From Verrucomicrobiia bacterium (GTDB lineage Bacteria > Verrucomicrobiota > Verrucomicrobiia > Verrucomicrobiales > DEV007): 64,000 nucleotides of DNA. The first letter of the stretch is position 1, and the number at the start of each line of letters is the position of its first letter. A program made the position numbers and the translations under genes. Location: contig JAGROY010000197.1 in the NCBI GenBank assembly GCA_020439995.1, positions 1 through 64,000 on the forward strand, given 5' to 3'. The notes beneath the pieces were generated by a model. That model was given only the letters and a program-made list of their open reading frames with translations. It was not told where the DNA came from and made no database searches. Below are positions 2,611 to 10,942 of the stretch, one piece after another.

Positions 2611-5292
2611 TTACACCAGATTGGCATCAACTCCGTCAATGACTCTACGGATCTCCCTCGCGAGGACATCGACCTGATATGGCTTCTGAACCACGCCTTC
2701 CGGCACGGAACCAGCTTCTTCAGCGAAGCTATCGACCTCCACCAGATAGCCACTGCAGATGACAACCGGAATGTGAGGGAATCTACCCGAACGGAGCTCT
2801 TTGAAAGTCTCGCGTCCAGACATGCGGGGCATCGTCAAGTCCAGCATGATCAGGCTGATGGATTTGCCACAGCGAGCGACGACTTCCAGTGCCTCCTTGC
2901 CATCCTGGGCAGTCTCCACCTTGTAGCCCTGGCGCTTCAGAACATTCTCAGCCACCGTGCGGACGATCTGTTCATCGTCGACGATCAGAATGGTTTCGGT
3001 GCCTCCGACCACTGGAGCTGATGCTGTGGCCGCGACTTCCGCAGGCTTATCACAGGCAGGAATGTACACGGAGAAAGTAGTGCCAACTCCAAGTTCCGAA
3101 TCACACTCGATCCAGCCATGGTGCTCCTGAACGATGCCGTAGGATGTGGCCAGACCAAGGCCGGTTCCTTTGCCCTGCTCCTTGGTCGTGAAAAATGGCT
3201 CAAAGATTTTCTCGCGGATGGATTCATCCATTCCCGTCCCATCGTCCTGCACGGAAATCTTCACGTAGTCACCGGGCTTGCAGTCCGTCTGCCGCGGCAG
3301 GGCGTCAAGGTTCACATACGCTTTTGCAGTAGTGACAGTGATCGACCCGCCGCCGACCAAAGCGTCCCGAGCATTCACACAAAAATTCATCAGTACCTGG
3401 TCGATCTGATTTCCATCGGCAAAAATAAACGGTTCAGCGTCGTCGAGGTTCACACGAAGGCGAATCGAGGGATCGAGACCAGGCGTCAGAATTTCCTGAA
3501 CGTCCTTCACCAGCCGATTGGCCGACCACGGCTGAAGCGAAACCTTGTTCTGCCGAGAGAATGTGAGCAGTTGCTTCACGATTCCCGCCGCACGCTCGGC
3601 GGCGCGCTTTGCAGAAAGCACCAGATCCTCATTCTCTTTTGGCATATCGCCCAGCAACTCACTCAGTGAGAGGTTGCCGATAATACCTGTAAGCAAGTTG
3701 TTAAAATCGTGGGCCACACCGCCGGACAGACGGCCAATTGCCTCCATCTTCGTCGACTGCTGAAGCCCCTGCTCCAGTCGGCGCTGCTCAGTCATATCCC
3801 GGAACATCCAGAGTCGGGCAAAAGTGTTGCCAGTGGAGTTCATCACCGGGGCACTGTAGATCGCCAACCGCATCTCCGCCTCGCCATTCACCACCCATTC
3901 GCCCTTGTGCACCAGGCCGGAGCTTGCGGTATGCTGCTTCCAAACCTCCTCAAACTTCTCCTCGTCTTCAAAGCATCTCAGAAGAGCAGACTTTGACGGC
4001 GTTCCGTCTGCGAGCCCCTCCTCAAGAAGCCTCGCTCCATTCACACCAAAGAAATCCCGCACGCGCTTGTTCGCGGCAAGGACTTCTCCAGTAGGTCGCA
4101 CCACGATGATCGCCTCTGGAGTAGACTCATAGGTCGCCCGCAATTGAGCGGTGAGATCCTCGAGATCAGCCTGGGATTCTCTGAGACGCTGCGTCCTCGA
4201 CTGTACGAGCGACTCCAAGTGGGTACGGTGACCTTTCAGCTCGTGAACCATCTGGTTGAAGGAAGTTGCCAGTGCCCGCATTTCACTCGGCCCGTCGTCA
4301 TCCATTCTGGCGTCAAGACTTCCTGAAGCAACAGACTTTGCGATCTCGGCAGCGCGGATCACCGGCTGTGCAAGTTTAGATGCGAGAAACCATCCGAACA
4401 AAGCCATAAGAATGGAAATAGCCCCGCCGCCCGCTAGCTGAGTAATCTGGAACTGGCGAATCATACCCGAGATGGTTTCTTCATTCTGACGGCACAAGAG
4501 TAGCAACGGATACGGCAATCCGGTGGCGGATGGATTCAGAACCTTCGTGTAGTGCAAAAAGACATTACCCTGCTGATCAGTGTGAGAACCAATAGAGGTG
4601 GACATCCAATTCTCCGTTGTTGATTTTGCAACCACGAAATCCTGGCTAATCATTTCCTCGTTAGGATGAGACAATATTTTTCTATTCTCGTCCATTAAGA
4701 TGAATGCTCCAGGCTGACCTCCGATCTTTGCTGAATTAAGAATCTCCCAAATATCGTCAAGTCCTATCTCCGCCCGCACGACACTGGCTGGAAGTTCTCC
4801 AGGCCTGCCAATCGGGATGTAGGTTGTGATCAGCAACTTGTAACCCTTCTCTTTACCTAAGCCGTCGGGATGGGGCCTTGAGATAAAACGATTCCCCTTC
4901 ACCGCATTCGCAAAATAGCGCGTCTCGTCACGGCGTCTATCGGTTTCCCGGGTCGATATCTCCCAGCCGTCGAGATCGAACAGCCGGATGTCACGAAAGT
5001 GTGAATAGCTCTCCGTCAACCTGTCAAACTCCATCCGCTTGTCCTCTTTGGATGATTCTGCCGACAGTAAAGTACGGCTCTGGGCTAGTGAATCAAGATC
5101 CCTAATGGCCTTATCAATTACATAAGCAACCTCCCGAGCCACTTCGTCTCCCAGATCAACCACACGACCATTCTCGGACTCCCTAAGCGCTTGACTCGTA
5201 ACCGTATGAGTCACCAAAAGAATCACGGCTAGCGGCGCGATTCCTGCGAGCAGGAGGGCAGTGAAAGCCCTCTGTCTGATCGATGGGATCAT
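2611..5292 (-). CDS. Hybrid sensor histidine kinase (Cache-HAMP-PAS-HisKA-HATPase-REC)
   Basis: 893 residues. TM helices lie at about 11-30 and 284-306 and enclose an extracytoplasmic region of roughly 250 residues that looks like a double Cache sensor ([33 protein letters not shown]). A HAMP stretch (about 307-360), coiled linker, PAS domain (about 385-500), HisKA with [11 protein letters not shown] (phospho-acceptor H528), HATPase (N box about 637-646, GTGLGLA near 709) and a C-terminal receiver with D818 in MLDLTMP follow. The start lies 36 bp after the stop of the PotD-like gene upstream, so the two probably form one transcript with the binding protein first. I infer that the periplasmic protein feeds the Cache domain. 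No separate output regulator gene adjoins; the fused receiver suggests a phosphorelay to one encoded elsewhere. Confidence 0.92.
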
Positions 5293-5328
5293 TAGGGATG
5301 GGTGAACAAAGTCCCGTTGGTTTAGATC

Positions 5329-6432
5329 CTAGTTAGCGGAAATCGATTCTTCCACATTCTTGCTCTTGTGAAGAGACTTCCATCCTCTATTCATAACAGC
5401 GTCTAACTTAGGACTAACCGCAAGCGATCCGCAGCGTTCTAGCACTTCTGAATCAGGATAGAGAGCTTTATTGTTGCGCATGTCTGGATTTATTTTGTCG
5501 AGGATCGGCCACGCCTCCTTATTTGGCGTTGCAAATCCAACAAAGTCTGAACTTGCCGCGGCAATCTCGGGGCGCTGCATGAAATTAATGAATGCTTTCG
5601 CATCTTCTAGACTATTTGTGTCCCTCGAAACCACAAAACTGTCCATCCAGACACTTGCTCCTTCGTCCGGGATGAAGAAATCGACATTCTCGTTTTCTGC
5701 CGCAGCTCGGGACGCGTCTCCACTATACATCATTGCCACAGCAATTTCGTCTCCCTTGGGTAGATTTTCGATTGTGTCGACATCGCTCATGAACTTGACC
5801 CGGCCGTTCTCGACAATTTCCGACAACTGCAACTGCGCTGTCTCAAGGTCTTCGGGTGTTGCTTGATCGATGCTCTTGCCCGCCAATAAAAGTCCAATCA
5901 TGAAACATTCCTGTTTCTCATCAAGAAGGGCCACTTTGCCTGCTACCTCGGGATCCTTCAGGAGCGACCAAGATCGCGAAGATGGTTGAATTAAATCTTT
6001 ACGATAGGCGAGCAACGTCGTTCCCCACATGTAGGGAACCGAGTACGCCTTCACCTGGTCGTAGGGGGGCTTCCGAAACTCCCGACTGATGTTAACGAGA
6101 TTTGGAACATCAATTTCATGAAGGACTCGGGCGTCACTCAGTAGATCAATAGTACGACCATCGGCCACGATGACATCGTACGCACTTGCGTTAACCCTTA
6201 CCTCTTCCGCCATCTCTTCAGTATCCTCGTAGAATTCGAGCTTTACCCTAATTCCCGTTTCTTTCTCGAAGGTTTCAAGAAGCTCAGGACTAAAGTATTC
6301 ATCCCAAGTGAACAATACAATCTCTCGCCCTTTCCCCGCGCTTGGCTCCATGCCGACTTCCTTTTGCTCATTCCCACATCCTGCCAGCGAAATCACCACG
6401 AGGAGTGCCACTATACAACTAATTCTGTTCAT
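5329..6432 (-). CDS. PotD/NspS-like polyamine-binding lipoprotein
   Basis: 367 residues with a lipobox at LVVISLAGC, so it is probably a lipid-anchored periplasmic solute-binding protein. Family signatures of spermidine/putrescine-binding proteins are present: LFTWDEYFSPE at the N-terminus, VPYMWGTT, AVAMMYSGDA, and DEGASVWMDSFVVS, the region that in PotD carries the acidic and aromatic ligands for amino groups. No PotABC permease or ATPase gene lies nearby. The next gene in the same direction is a hybrid histidine kinase. That arrangement resembles NspS, the norspermidine-responsive binding protein of Vibrio cholerae that signals through a membrane partner instead of feeding a transporter. 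Ligand identity is not visible from sequence. A TATAAT-like box ends only about 8 bases before the ATG and there is no Shine-Dalgarno, so the mRNA may be leaderless. Confidence 0.88.
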   Translation of the reverse strand: MNRISCIVALLVVISLAGCGNEQKEVGMEPSAGKGREIVLFTWDEYFSPELLETFEKETGIRVKLEFYEDTEEMAEEVRVNASAYDVIVADGRTIDLLSDARVLHEIDVPNLVNISREFRKPPYDQVKAYSVPYMWGTTLLAYRKDLIQPSSRSWSLLKDPEVAGKVALLDEKQECFMIGLLLAGKSIDQATPEDLETAQLQLSEIVENGRVKFMSDVDTIENLPKGDEIAVAMMYSGDASRAAAENENVDFFIPDEGASVWMDSFVVSRDTNSLEDAKAFINFMQRPEIAAASSDFVGFATPNKEAWPILDKINPDMRNNKALYPDSEVLERCGSLAVSPKLDAVMNRGWKSLHKSKNVEESISAN

Positions 6433-6642
6433 AATTAGTAATTATACCATAACTTTCAGAAAGAGCATACATTTTTATCCTATTTTCTAAAAAATCGTTG
6501 CGTTTGCTGCTTAATATTTTATAATATGTAAAATTCTTATTATTGAGAACTAAATTTGAGTTTTTTCCCACCAGATTCTGCAATAAATCGTAAGTTAATT
6601 GGTCCTTTCTGTTGCAATCTTCCACGCGAGCGGGAGCAAAAC
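6433..6642. promoter_or_regulatory. AT-rich divergent promoter region between PotD-like gene and MATE operon
   Basis: This 210-bp gap separates divergent starts and is strikingly AT-rich compared with its flanks. On the plus strand TTGCGT (6498-6503), a 16-bp spacer and TATAAT (6520-6525) make a good sigma-70-type promoter for the MATE set, leaving a leader of about 110 nt. On the minus strand TATAAT (complement of 6441-6446) lies directly upstream of the PotD-like ATG. No clear operator palindrome was found. Confidence 0.45.
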
Positions 6643-7983
6643 GTGACGGGCAGGAGCAAGCGACGGAAAGACTTGTTGCTGGCCGGGTGGCCACTGATCG
6701 CGGCTAATGTTGCGACGGTCGGGCTCCAGCTCGGCGACGCTTGGATCACGTCGCGACTGGGAACAGTTGCGCTGGCTTCGCTCGCTGTCCCGGGATTATT
6801 CCTGTTCACGATGATGAGCTTTGGCCAAGGGTATTCGCTCCCCCTTATATCACGATTCGCCACCCAATCGCAGCGTCCTCCTGTGCGTCACGCTGCGGCT
6901 CAAGCGGGAATTCTTGCGGCTTTGGGAATCGTGATTGCTTTGCTTGGAACTTTCATGGCAAACCCGGCCTTAGGCGCATTCCAGCATCCTATACAGCTAT
7001 TAGAGATGGAGGTCGTTTATCTAAAACTTGGATTGTTTGCTACGGCAATGAAGTTTGGTTCCTTCGTCATCGCTGCCTTCTTCATAGCGATTCAGCGCAC
7101 CACGCTGGTCCTTGCAGTTGGATTATCTACAGTTACACTAAACTTAGGGCTCAGCTTTGGACTTACCACCGACGCCTTTGGATTACCGAATGTCGGATTT
7201 GTGGGCGTAGCGATTGGCACCTTGGTTGCCTGCTTTTCCGAGCTCCTCATCTTCTCCTTATGCCTCTGGAATTTGAGCCGTAATGGGAGCTGCTTGGTCT
7301 GCCTCTCTATTCCGATCGATAGAAGAGGGAAAAGGATTGCTGTCTTCGATCAGCTTCGAGTAGGGTTCCCTGCAGGATTACACGGCGCAGTCGACGTAAT
7401 TGCCTGGGGCGCAATTCTTCTATGGTTTGTAGGACAATTTGGTTCTGATCACTTGGCTGCCGCGACCGTGCTAATCCGCCTAATGCAAGTGTCCTTTCTT
7501 CCGGCGGAGGGAATTGCGATCGCTCTTGTAGGTTTCCTCGGGAAGAGCAACAGAAGCAGCAACGCCAGACGTTATACCAATTCGGCTTTTAACTTGATTG
7601 GCTCGTATATGGCTCTCTGTGCCTGCGCCTTTCTTGCATTTCGGACACCACTGTCGAGTTATCTAACAGAATCCGCCAGTGTCGCGAGAATTGTTGCAGA
7701 CTGCATACTTTTCGTCTGCGTGTTCCAGATATTTGACGCAATGAATATAACTTTTTCTAGCGCACTCTTAGGCACCGGCGACACAGCCTGGCCAGCCGCC
7801 ATCAATTTCCTACTTCTCGTCACCATACTTTTAGGGGGCGGGTATACCGTTATTCGCTTCTTCCCTCAATTGAAGTCTACTGGAATTTGGATTGTCGTTA
7901 TGATTTACGTCGCCAGCCAAGGTTTACTTTTCTATTACCGCTGGAATCGCAACATAACAACACAAAACAAGATCGCCTCATAA
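6643..7983 (+). CDS. MATE-family multidrug/metabolite exporter
   Basis: 446 residues from the GTG at 6643, which has GGGAG seven bases upstream; an in-frame TTG at 6556 would add 29 residues that do not look like a MATE N-terminus. The protein begins with a basic segment followed by LLLAGWPLIAANVATVGLQ and has about twelve hydrophobic segments in two halves, as in DinF/NorM-type Na+/H+-coupled exporters. MATE helix-1 and helix-7 patterns are recognisable (GDAWITSRLGTVALASLAVPG; second-half FPAGLHGAVDVIAWG). The SET-domain gene starts 11 bp after its stop and further co-directional genes follow, so this is probably the first gene of an operon. The substrate is unknown. Context with a carboxynorspermidine synthase invites a polyamine-like or methylated product as cargo, but that is inference. 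Base composition is lower in G+C than the genes to the right. Confidence 0.85.
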   Translation: MTGRSKRRKDLLLAGWPLIAANVATVGLQLGDAWITSRLGTVALASLAVPGLFLFTMMSFGQGYSLPLISRFATQSQRPPVRHAAAQAGILAALGIVIALLGTFMANPALGAFQHPIQLLEMEVVYLKLGLFATAMKFGSFVIAAFFIAIQRTTLVLAVGLSTVTLNLGLSFGLTTDAFGLPNVGFVGVAIGTLVACFSELLIFSLCLWNLSRNGSCLVCLSIPIDRRGKRIAVFDQLRVGFPAGLHGAVDVIAWGAILLWFVGQFGSDHLAAATVLIRLMQVSFLPAEGIAIALVGFLGKSNRSSNARRYTNSAFNLIGSYMALCACAFLAFRTPLSSYLTESASVARIVADCILFVCVFQIFDAMNITFSSALLGTGDTAWPAAINFLLLVTILLGGGYTVIRFFPQLKSTGIWIVVMIYVASQGLLFYYRWNRNITTQNKIAS

Positions 7984-7994
7984 AATATGCAACA

Positions 7995-8531
7995 ATGGAA
8001 AACAGGAAACTAACGACAAGGGATCTGGGTACCATGGGACGTGGAGTTTATGCAACAGCCAAAATCTTCCCAGGTGAGTTTATCGCCAGATTCGATGGAA
8101 AGATTTATTACTGGGACTGGCCAAACATACGGTTGCCGAATGATGCTCCGGAATATGTTTTCGAACACGCCATACCGTTTGCCGACAATTATGTTAGAGA
8201 CTCCACGGGACTAGCGAGGCTTGTCAACCACTCTTGCAAACCAAACTGTAGAATCCAAGACCTCTTCTCTATTGTCGCAATGCATCCAATTGAGGCGGGC
8301 CAACAGCTAACTTGGGACTACGACACGGCTCAAGACGATAGCTCGTGGTTCATGCACTGCAATTGCGGCGCTCGTGAATGCCGACAGATTATCCGCGGGT
8401 ACAGCCACTTAACCACTGAGCAGAAGCACCGATGTTCTAGCTACACATCTGAATGGATTCTCGCGAAATCCGTAATAGTACCCCGCCCAAGTACTGCGAT
8501 TGCCCCCTCAACGATAGGGCTAACCACTTAA
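7995..8531 (+). CDS. SET-domain methyltransferase (lysine methyltransferase-like)
   Basis: 178 residues from the ATG at 7995, 11 bp after the MATE stop; the open frame continues upstream into the MATE gene, but SET proteins begin near here. The SET fold is clear: GRGVYATAKIFPGEFIARFDG at residues about 14-34, the pseudoknot motif RLVNHSCKPNC (N78-H79-S80-C81), LTWDYDTAQD, and a post-SET CNCGARECR with C122, C124 and C129 that should complete a zinc site with C81. SET proteins transfer methyl groups from SAM to lysine side chains; bacterial members are uncommon and known targets include histone-like proteins. There is no additional domain, signal peptide or secretion tail. It sits between an exporter and a second methyltransferase gene. 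Target unknown. Confidence 0.87.
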   Translation: MENRKLTTRDLGTMGRGVYATAKIFPGEFIARFDGKIYYWDWPNIRLPNDAPEYVFEHAIPFADNYVRDSTGLARLVNHSCKPNCRIQDLFSIVAMHPIEAGQQLTWDYDTAQDDSSWFMHCNCGARECRQIIRGYSHLTTEQKHRCSSYTSEWILAKSVIVPRPSTAIAPSTIGLTT

Positions 8532-8561
8532 TAAAATCGCCGAGCTTTGTCGCAGGCAATA

Positions 8562-8595
8562 GATACGGCAACACATTCGATACGGCAACACATTC
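8562..8595 (+). repeat. Perfect 17-bp tandem duplication
   Basis: Two abutting copies of GATACGGCAACACATTC occupy 8562-8578 and 8579-8595, between the SET stop and the most likely PRMT-like start at 8600. Seventeen is not a multiple of three, so if the region is translated as part of the PRMT-like gene the duplication changes the N-terminal frame. Confidence 0.9.
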
Positions 8596-8599
8596 GTTG

Positions 8600-9721
8600 A
8601 TGCTCCCAACCAGCATGCCCACCGCAACCCCAAACAATTCAACCTCGATATCTGGATCTTTTGGCTCAGACTACCAATCGCTGCCGCACACTCCCGGACT
8701 GCCCCCCCTGTTTTGGCCTTGCGTTGGAGAGCATCCAGTCTACGACGGGAATCTTTATAACTTCCTTTCCGCCGATGAAATGCGCAACGACCTCTATCGA
8801 TCGGGAATTGGTGATACTGTTGCCGGAAAGATTGTTGTCGACATCGGCACCGGTGACCAAGCCCATTGGGCCATAGAATGCATCCGGGCAGGCGCAAAAA
8901 AAGCTTACGCCATTGAACAGAATCCAAAAGCGGCGGCGTTGGCCCAAGAGCTAGTCTCTAAACTTGGGCTGGCAGACAGAATCACAGTCTTAGTTGGCCG
9001 GTCCACCGAGATTAATCTGCCGGAACTTGCGGATGTTTGCATTTCTGAGATACTGGGCGAGATAGGTAGTGCCGAGGGTGCAATCACTACTCTAAATGAT
9101 GCCAAGAATCGGCTAATGAAGACTGGCGGAGAATTCTTACCAGAGCGCTGTAACACTTTCATCGCTCCGGTACAGCTACCGACCGAACTCATCACGTCAC
9201 CCACTTTTGATCCCGATGCCCTCCCGTACCTTAATCATATTTTCGCCGCCGCTCGGAGGCCGTTTGATGTCCGCGTCAGCATCTCGAATTTAGGAAACTC
9301 CTACAAATTGCCGTCGATTCCTACAACGTTCGAATCCCTGAACTTCAGTGGTCAAATCGAGCAGAACTCCATCCACGGTCACACGTTCGTTATTAGCGAC
9401 ACTGCTGAACTACACGGATTCCTACTCTGGCTGTCCATAGAGTGCAGAATCGGTGCAGGGCAACTCGATACCCTGCTGCACAAAACTAACTGGTTTCCCG
9501 TCTTCTTTCCAGTTTGGCCGAATAGCCTACCAGTGACCGAAGGTGATAGCATCGAATGTGCTTTCTCACGGCACCTCTCAGACGATGGAATGCATCCCAA
9601 CTACGCGATTGAAGGTATCGTGCGGAGCCGAGCGGGAAACGAACAAAATTTCATGTGGAAGTCCGATCATCACAGCTCCACGTTTCTGGCAAGCGATTTC
9701 TACAAGGAACTTTTTGCTTGA
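8600..9721 (+). CDS. PRMT-like class I SAM-dependent methyltransferase
   Basis: 373 residues from the ATG at 8600; the same frame is open back to an ATG at 8453, which would overlap the SET gene by 79 bp and add a low-complexity N-terminus. The core resembles protein arginine N-methyltransferases: YNFLSADEMRNDL ahead of motif I VVDIGTGD (about 8831), acidic post-I YAIEQNP, and SEILGEIGSAEGA (9044 on), where two glutamates nine residues apart match the PRMT double-E loop. A GGEFLPERCNTFIAP stretch follows, then a beta-barrel-like half. Where PRMTs carry THW, this protein has KTNW (about 9482-9493). Family chemistry is methyl transfer to arginine guanidinium; the altered THW loop makes substrate and product type uncertain. 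It lies 33 bp before the carboxynorspermidine synthase gene. Confidence 0.75.
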   Translation: MLPTSMPTATPNNSTSISGSFGSDYQSLPHTPGLPPLFWPCVGEHPVYDGNLYNFLSADEMRNDLYRSGIGDTVAGKIVVDIGTGDQAHWAIECIRAGAKKAYAIEQNPKAAALAQELVSKLGLADRITVLVGRSTEINLPELADVCISEILGEIGSAEGAITTLNDAKNRLMKTGGEFLPERCNTFIAPVQLPTELITSPTFDPDALPYLNHIFAAARRPFDVRVSISNLGNSYKLPSIPTTFESLNFSGQIEQNSIHGHTFVISDTAELHGFLLWLSIECRIGAGQLDTLLHKTNWFPVFFPVWPNSLPVTEGDSIECAFSRHLSDDGMHPNYAIEGIVRSRAGNEQNFMWKSDHHSSTFLASDFYKELFA

Positions 9722-9754
9722 GACCGAGGTTGAAGCAGGGAAACTCACCGCTAA

Positions 9755-10942
9755 ATGCCCAAACTACTAATCATCGGAGCCGGCGGCGTTAGCCGGGTTG
9801 TTGTACACAAATGTGCTGGCCTGCCGGATGTTTTTCCGGAGATCATGCTGGCGAGTCGGACGAAGTCGAAGTGCGATGCGATCGCAGCGGAGTTAAACCG
9901 CCCAATTCAGACGGCAAAGATTGATGCGGATGATCCTGCTCAGGTTGCAGCTTTAATCAGGGAGTTTGGCGCGGATCTGGTGGTCAATGTTGCCCTTCCT
10001 TACCAGGATTTGAGCATCATGGATGGATGCCTGGAAGCCGGAGCTCATTACGTCGACACAGCGAACTACGAGCCTCCAAATGAAGCGAAGTTTTCGTATG
10101 GCTGGCAGTGGGCGTACCAGGACAAGTTCAAGGAGGCTGGGCTTTTGGCTCTGTTGGGCTCTGGGTTTGATCCCGGGGTGACGGGTGTCTATTGCGCTTA
10201 TGCGCAGAAGCATCACTTCGACGAGATTCATGAGATTGAGATCATCGACTGCAATGCCGGCGATCATGGGCATCCTTTTGCCACGAACTTCAATCCGGAG
10301 ATCAATATTCGGGAAGTAACGGCGAATGGCCGCTACTGGGAGAATGGCGAGTGGGTGGAGACGAAGCCGATGGAGTTCAGCCAGACGTTCGAGTTCTCGG
10401 AAGGCATCGGCCCGAAGAAGGCGTTTCTCATTTACCACGAGGAGCTGGAATCGCTGGTGAAGAACATCAAGGGACTGAAGCGGATCCGGTTCTGGATGAC
10501 GTTTTCAGACAATTACATCAAGCATCTTGAGGTGCTGCAGAACGTAGGAATGACTTCGATCGAGCCGATCAACTACAACGGCCAGGAGATCATCCCATTG
10601 CAATTCCTGAAGGCGCTGCTGCCTGATCCGGCATCACTGGGGCCACGCACGGTGGGCAAGACGTGGATCGGCTGCGTGATCGACGGGATTAAGGACGGCA
10701 AGCGACGCCGCTACACGGTCTACAACACCTGCGACCATCAGGAATGCTTCAAGGAAACAGGCGCTCAAGCGGTGTCCTACACCACTGGGGTTCCGGCGAT
10801 GATCGGTGCAAAGATGATCGCTGAAGGCAAGTGGACAGGGGCAGGTGTCTTCAACATTGAAGAGTTCGATCCCGATCCCTTCATGGCCGACCTCAATGCA
10901 TACGGCCTGCCGTGGCACGAAAGCATCGAGGAACTGGAGTAG
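9755..10942 (+). CDS. Carboxynorspermidine synthase (saccharopine dehydrogenase family)
   Basis: 395 residues, close to the family's usual length. The N-terminus is a Rossmann nucleotide-binding segment (KLLIIGAGGVSRVVVHK). Family signatures are strong: ANYEPPNEAKF, GSGFDPGVTGVYCAYA, HGHPFATNFNPEINIRE, and TTGVPAMIGAKM near the end. Enzymes of this group condense L-aspartate beta-semialdehyde with a diamine (diaminopropane or putrescine) using NADPH to give carboxynorspermidine or carboxyspermidine. The usual partner decarboxylase (NspC/CANSDC) is not in this window. The gene lies 33 bp after the PRMT-like gene, and the divergent PotD-like/kinase pair a few kilobases away suggests polyamine sensing and synthesis side by side. 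It is richer in G+C than the MATE-SET-PRMT genes, so it may be an older resident of the locus. Confidence 0.9.
   Translation: MPKLLIIGAGGVSRVVVHKCAGLPDVFPEIMLASRTKSKCDAIAAELNRPIQTAKIDADDPAQVAALIREFGADLVVNVALPYQDLSIMDGCLEAGAHYVDTANYEPPNEAKFSYGWQWAYQDKFKEAGLLALLGSGFDPGVTGVYCAYAQKHHFDEIHEIEIIDCNAGDHGHPFATNFNPEINIREVTANGRYWENGEWVETKPMEFSQTFEFSEGIGPKKAFLIYHEELESLVKNIKGLKRIRFWMTFSDNYIKHLEVLQNVGMTSIEPINYNGQEIIPLQFLKALLPDPASLGPRTVGKTWIGCVIDGIKDGKRRRYTVYNTCDHQECFKETGAQAVSYTTGVPAMIGAKMIAEGKWTGAGVFNIEEFDPDPFMADLNAYGLPWHESIEELE

Follow-up and report, generated by a model that had tools for sequence, protein, structure and literature searches.

A small SET-domain methyltransferase and, in two genera, a PRMT-like methyltransferase belong to a polyamine module that also carries exporter and sensor genes. 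We describe this module from a stretch of 64,000 nucleotides of a verrucomicrobial contig (GenBank JAGROY010000197.1, positions 1 to 64,000), here called the window. The cluster makes polyamines, with export and sensing of them probable. SET and PRMT folds are known mainly as protein methyltransferases, including in human cells; relatives keep a SET or a PRMT gene in this cluster, and the likelier target would therefore be an exported small amine and not a protein. Our preferred reading of the sequence, to which we give about even chances, is a polyamine biosynthesis-export-sensing module in which the SET and/or PRMT-type enzymes would methylate the exported amine or guanidine. The genes concerned are:

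2611..5292, minus strand: hybrid histidine kinase (HK), 893 aa, with dCache, HAMP, PAS, HisKA, HATPase and receiver domains (Pfam)
5329..6432, minus strand: PotD-like polyamine-binding lipoprotein (SBP; NF007048 PotD, E=2.1e-48)
6643..7983, plus strand: MATE-family exporter, 446 aa (PF01554, E=1.8e-24); reading frame open from TTG 6556
7995..8531, plus strand: small SET-domain methyltransferase, 178 aa (PF00856), with post-SET cysteines and a C-terminal extension
8453..9721, plus strand: PRMT5/PRMT6-like class I methyltransferase, ORF of 422 aa (PF05185); start may be 8600
9755..10942, plus strand: carboxyspermidine/carboxynorspermidine dehydrogenase (CASDH; structure 8deb, E=1.1e-169)

In the window, the MATE, SET and PRMT-like genes lie head to tail on the plus strand with their motifs intact. 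The ORF coordinates confirm that the three are consecutive and that SET begins 11 bp past the MATE stop, at ATG 7995; this is the first in-frame ATG, and so SET is taken as 7995-8531. The run 6643-9721 given in the preliminary description is therefore real, but the unit is larger (approximately 2611-10942) and includes HK, SBP and CASDH; the linked polyamine-binding sensor pair, SBP and HK, had been left out altogether. This pair lies upstream of MATE in divergent orientation on the minus strand, its genes 36 bp apart. The MATE, SET, PRMT-like and CASDH genes are closely spaced and co-directional, with 33 bp between the PRMT-like gene and CASDH. SET and the PRMT-like gene overlap by 79 bp if the latter starts at 8453, or are separated by 68 bp if it starts at 8600, which is also possible because homology begins near residue 85. 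G+C is about 0.43-0.54 in a run from about 4200 to 9900, compared with about 0.52-0.60 in most of the surrounding 16 kb. Promoter and terminator scans of the locus gave signals at or below chance level.

The exporter has two PF01554 stretches, a TIGR00797 match below that model's cut-off (E=2.6e-37) and two candidate starts, TTG 6556 or GTG 6643, with the stop at 7983. In many related modules the exporter slot is filled by an SMR-like membrane protein of 112-116 aa, whose matches to EamA/SMR profiles are weak. Guanidinium and polyamine exporters are found among SMR transporters (PMC9574504). Another gene that adjoins MATE, often within 10 bp and convergently, encodes a DDAH-like hydrolase (PF19420). 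It is seen mostly in modules that lack SET (L174 4475-5482, L179 3004-3987, L183 9524-10534, L185, L187, L189 and L190; in L106 it comes after SET), and the system may thus include a guanidine hydrolase as well.

The SBP matches E. coli PotD in the PDB with E=1e-45. Most of the residues that we take to be polyamine-contacting in PotD are kept, and equivalents of W34, E36, Y37, E171, W255 and D257 can be recognized. Beside the SBP gene there is no ABC permease or ATPase gene, its neighbours being HK and MATE in the window and an exporter, SET or HK in relatives; a PotABCD uptake system would have such genes next to the binding protein. In most of the related modules, too, an HK homologue is next to this binding protein, so that a PotD-like protein stands beside a membrane signalling protein, as in NspS/MbaA-type systems. 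HK has histidine kinase and receiver domains according to Pfam, and GGDEF/EAL output domains are absent from it. The binding protein is doubled in several loci (L114, L139, L140, L142, L143, L144 and others), either as two tandem genes or as a single open frame (about 730-756 aa) in which the PotD-like match occurs twice. In the nearest relative (L176 8913-10046, G001:C39) its gene is split by a single TAG stop, through decay or an assembly error.

The 8deb structure is a solved carboxyspermidine dehydrogenase, and the window protein matches it over 390 residues; its match to NF043000 (E=8.4e-112) does not reach the cut-off. Elsewhere in the same genome, on contig C453, nspC (above its profile cut-off) overlaps speA, which makes a route from arginine to spermidine or norspermidine via SpeA, CASDH and NspC plausible. 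A search of this genome, run without a control, found no SpeY/DHS-like gene. In a relative (G008, L181), CASDH-SpeA-MATE is divergent from SBP-HK. This run makes CASDH a module member too. Modules thus reach a triamine in one of two ways, through a SpeY/DHS-like enzyme or through CASDH, and both routes have been described (PMC10407285).

How firmly SET belongs to the module can be judged from relatives. SET neighbourhoods were taken from 75 genomes of the same family and from beyond it, and their genes were marked by BLAST, with the window proteins and SpeA, AguA, AguB and homospermidine/DHS-like enzymes named by NCBIfam as references. Module genes were defined as a MATE or SMR-like exporter, the binding protein, SpeA, SpeY/DHS-like, AguA and AguB at a distance of at most 8 kb, and membership of the window's SET subfamily as at least 147 bits to the subfamily profile. 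Module genes lie within 8 kb of 26/27 subfamily copies (the copies come from 24 loci of the same family), compared with 5/25 other SET genes of that family and 0/79 SET loci from Burkholderiales, Acidobacteria and others (L002-L080). Fisher's test for 26/27 against 5/25 gives p=9e-9, a value that overstates the weight of the linkage, since SET copies share descent, some are paired and they are thus not independent. Near the 27 subfamily SETs there is an exporter in 23/27, SBP in 21/27, HK in 20/27 and polyamine enzymes in 8/27. Linked and unlinked SETs are largely separate in a tree, with 6 changes compared with 23 expected from shuffles, and the window SET groups with other module SETs.

The window order, HK and SBP on one strand and MATE and SET on the other, is repeated in G014 (L106) and G027 (L160). 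SET is found beside SpeA, SpeY, AguA or AguB in six loci (L107, L108, L111, L113, L116 and L121); in L121, SMR, SET, SpeA and SpeY follow one another at spacings of 3, 75 and 18. An SMR-SET pair overlapping by 4 bp is also present in L131, from a different family of the class. Gene order varies from genus to genus, evidence that SET has been re-linked to the module repeatedly. SET is also an accessory gene, present in some modules and absent from others: it follows MATE in G014 and is missing from G017 at loci that are apparently equivalent, each of them with a DDAH-like gene downstream and one that by eye resembles phosphatidylserine decarboxylase. Many modules (e.g., L177, L179, L183, L187 and L190) contain no recognised methyltransferase, and so methylation would be optional. 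The preliminary description proposed looking for conserved SET-PRMT-MATE neighbourhoods. MATE-SET and PRMT-with-module arrangements do recur, so that its refuting outcome, a lack of co-conservation in every other genome, is contradicted for both, but the full trio occurs, among the sampled genomes, in the window genome only, with SET and PRMT separate elsewhere, and the notion of a conserved trio was dropped.

Several further features of SET loci were observed. Two diverged SET copies are present in one module in L116 (8555-9769), L120 (5734-7028) and L142, suggesting split substrate roles. Genes for a glutamine-synthetase-like protein and for a protein of which one half is PP2C-phosphatase-like (both named by eye) lie beside the SET module in L108, L111, L115, L118 and L119. 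A different, housekeeping-type SET is found near HK, mostly about 1.6 kb beyond it (L106 600-1166, L145, L158, L183, L185 and L186), and three of these form their own clade in the tree. In a gracilibacterial locus read with code 25 (L001 6268-9106), a protein of 531-545 aa has a C-terminal SET domain close to the window's SET group and an N-terminal part without a Pfam match; its gene directly follows one for a PLP decarboxylase. This neighbour belongs to the Orn/DAP/Arg family and may be a true ornithine decarboxylase, though LysA gives its best NCBIfam match, at a score under the cut-off.

The SET protein itself matches PF00856 at E=3.9e-14 (53.4 bits, with a cut-off of 22.4) and shows the features expected of a SET domain: the GRG turn, SAM-binding glycines, NHSC and, within WDY, the catalytic Tyr (Y109). 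It also has the post-SET zinc cluster CxCx4C, with C122, C124 and C129 invariant in the alignment. The preliminary description credited both methyltransferases with intact SAM and zinc motifs; the SAM motifs are present in both, but the zinc motif is found solely in SET. The nearest solved structures are MLL1-type histone methyltransferases (MLL1, 6e-12). BurB, the nearest bacterial match in the PDB, scores below MLL1 (4e-8) and is the only bacterial small-molecule SET there that is matched by both SET profiles. An AlphaFold model has a mean pLDDT of 63, and with this low-confidence model Foldseek puts MLL1 at the top of its list and BurB 26th. At the catalytic strand, WDY replaces the usual [YF]DY in 8/8 aligned members of the window's SET group; our guess is that an amine could sit in a cation cage formed by its Trp.

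The PRMT-like protein is just above the cut-off for PF05185, the PRMT5 family (24.3 bits compared with 22.9, E=3.2e-5), and matches human PRMT6 in the PDB at E=1.5e-17. It keeps VDIGTG and the double-E loop SEILGEIGSAEG, with TNW replacing THW. Relatives are found in 1/388 genomes of the phylum at E<=1e-25 and in 4/75 of the family at E<1e-50, the window's own genome included in both counts. Thus, of two folds that had both been thought uncommon in bacteria, the PRMT-like one is indeed rare here, but SET is common, with matches in 48/57 relatives. In another genus (G400, L182) the PRMT-like gene (8175-9377) is inside the module between SBP and HK: SpeY-SpeA-MATE are on one strand and SBP-PRMT-HK on the other, with a 4-bp overlap between SBP and PRMT. 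In G001, of the window's genus, it is at a contig end, and a separate contig of that genome ends after HIT-CASDH-HK-SBP; in G029 it is on a 4-kb contig that carries no module gene. Distant relatives occur in Streptomyces, Nostoc and Tistrella replicons. On plasmid pNsp_c of Nostoc sp. ATCC 53789 (L126 12001-12999), the PRMT-like domain of an NRPS shares about 38% identity with the window protein, and the Streptomyces clusters with a relative also carry an amidinotransferase and an arginine deiminase. These NRPS and Streptomyces contexts point to small-molecule, perhaps guanidine, chemistry.

The main rival to small-amine methylation is that SET and the PRMT-like enzyme do methylate a protein and thereby adjust polyamine export or response, so that the module is their regulatory setting and not the source of their substrate. 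The transporter, the binding protein, the kinase, a polyamine enzyme or a ribosomal or nucleoid protein could then be targets. We consider this a serious possibility, if a doubtful one: both enzymes come closest, in sequence and fold, to the lysine and arginine protein methyltransferases of eukaryotes, and the PRMT double-E motif is kept, but in different genomes two unrelated folds turn up in one amine module, SET genes sit inside biosynthetic operons, and BurB and the PRMT-like NRPS relatives suggest small-molecule roles. BurB also raises the prospect that the substrate of SET is methionine or some other amino acid, with a sulfonium or amino-acid derivative exported and the polyamine genes sharing regulation only. 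As the sole bacterial small-molecule SET in the PDB hit by both profiles it lends this idea some weight, yet we find it quite improbable, because the enzymes of the module are those of arginine, agmatine and putrescine and its sensor is PotD-like, in place of the BurI, BurD and BurE steps (PMC12542666).

It is likewise improbable that the PRMT-like gene alone is a recent and functionally unrelated arrival from a natural-product context behind a genuine MATE-SET pair. Its rarity and patchiness, its relatives in Streptomyces, Nostoc and Tistrella and the G029 copy with no module gene adjoining would fit, but the G400 copy is embedded in a module, overlapping the binding-protein gene, and the window copy has SET and CASDH as its neighbours. 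That unrelated genes adjoin here by chance is scarcely credible: the trio is seen once, but SET-module linkage in relatives (26/27 against 5/25 and 0/79), with orders repeated in different genera, contradicts it. Methylation of a small amine followed by export, as the preliminary description had it, is thus still the best explanation, backed by the family-wide linkage of exporter, SET and polyamine genes and by the G400 PRMT, but the trio itself is unique and the SET fold is not rare.

In outline, the small-amine module would work as follows. Its enzymes would make agmatine, putrescine and a triamine, using CASDH here (with nspC-speA on another contig) and SpeA, SpeY/DHS-like, AguA and AguB in relatives. 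SET and/or the PRMT-like enzyme would move methyl groups from SAM onto an amine or guanidine group, agmatine, putrescine, spermidine and homospermidine being the candidate substrate class. MATE, or the SMR-like protein in relatives, would export the methylated product, and the PotD-like lipoprotein would bind extracellular polyamine and signal via the dCache hybrid histidine kinase. Linkage in many genomes, with both methyltransferase folds recurring, establishes module membership; from the gene content we infer that the substrate is a small amine and that its methylated form is exported and sensed. More tentatively, SET and PRMT folds may have been recruited repeatedly as interchangeable N-methylating tailoring enzymes for a polyamine or guanidine destined for export and for detection by its own PotD-like receptor with HK, as a methylated-polyamine signalling or defence system. 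If true, two folds known chiefly for acting on proteins would gain a polyamine or guanidine as substrate, a group of bacterial SET genes without a known target would be accounted for, and an environmental bacterial family would be seen to have a make-export-sense polyamine loop.

Among the open-access papers searched, none describes the module, and none brings a SET domain together with methylation and an operon, spermidine and arginine decarboxylase. Parts of the module do resemble known systems. Known bacterial polyamine clusters (PMC10407285, PMC10413350) have the same enzymes: SpeA, AguA/AguB, SpeY (a DHS homologue) and CASDH/CASDC. In those descriptions we noted no SET or PRMT-like partner. 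MdtJI, a spermidine exporter of the SMR family, resembles the SMR-like exporter of many related modules, whereas the window has MATE instead. In Vibrio cholerae, polyamine is sensed by NspS with MbaA (PMC5646818), likewise a PotD-like periplasmic protein with a membrane signalling protein in a producer that makes polyamine via NspC; there the output is a c-di-GMP enzyme, while the window has a hybrid histidine kinase, and its locus adds an exporter and methyltransferases. The window's PRMT-like protein shares the SAM motif and double-E loop of PRMT5/PRMT6, with TNW for THW, but it is 34-41% identical to bacterial relatives (NRPS, Streptomyces clusters and same-family loci), and eukaryotic PRMTs are far more distant. 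BurB of Burkholderia thailandensis, a SET-domain methionine S-methyltransferase with a pocket that relies on main-chain contacts (PMC12542666), is also a small stand-alone bacterial SET protein (180 compared with 178 aa) and serves a small-molecule biosynthetic pathway. It differs in methylating the sulfur of methionine for DMSP and in not being described with polyamine genes, and the window SET differs from it in its gene neighbours and in the WDY of its catalytic strand.
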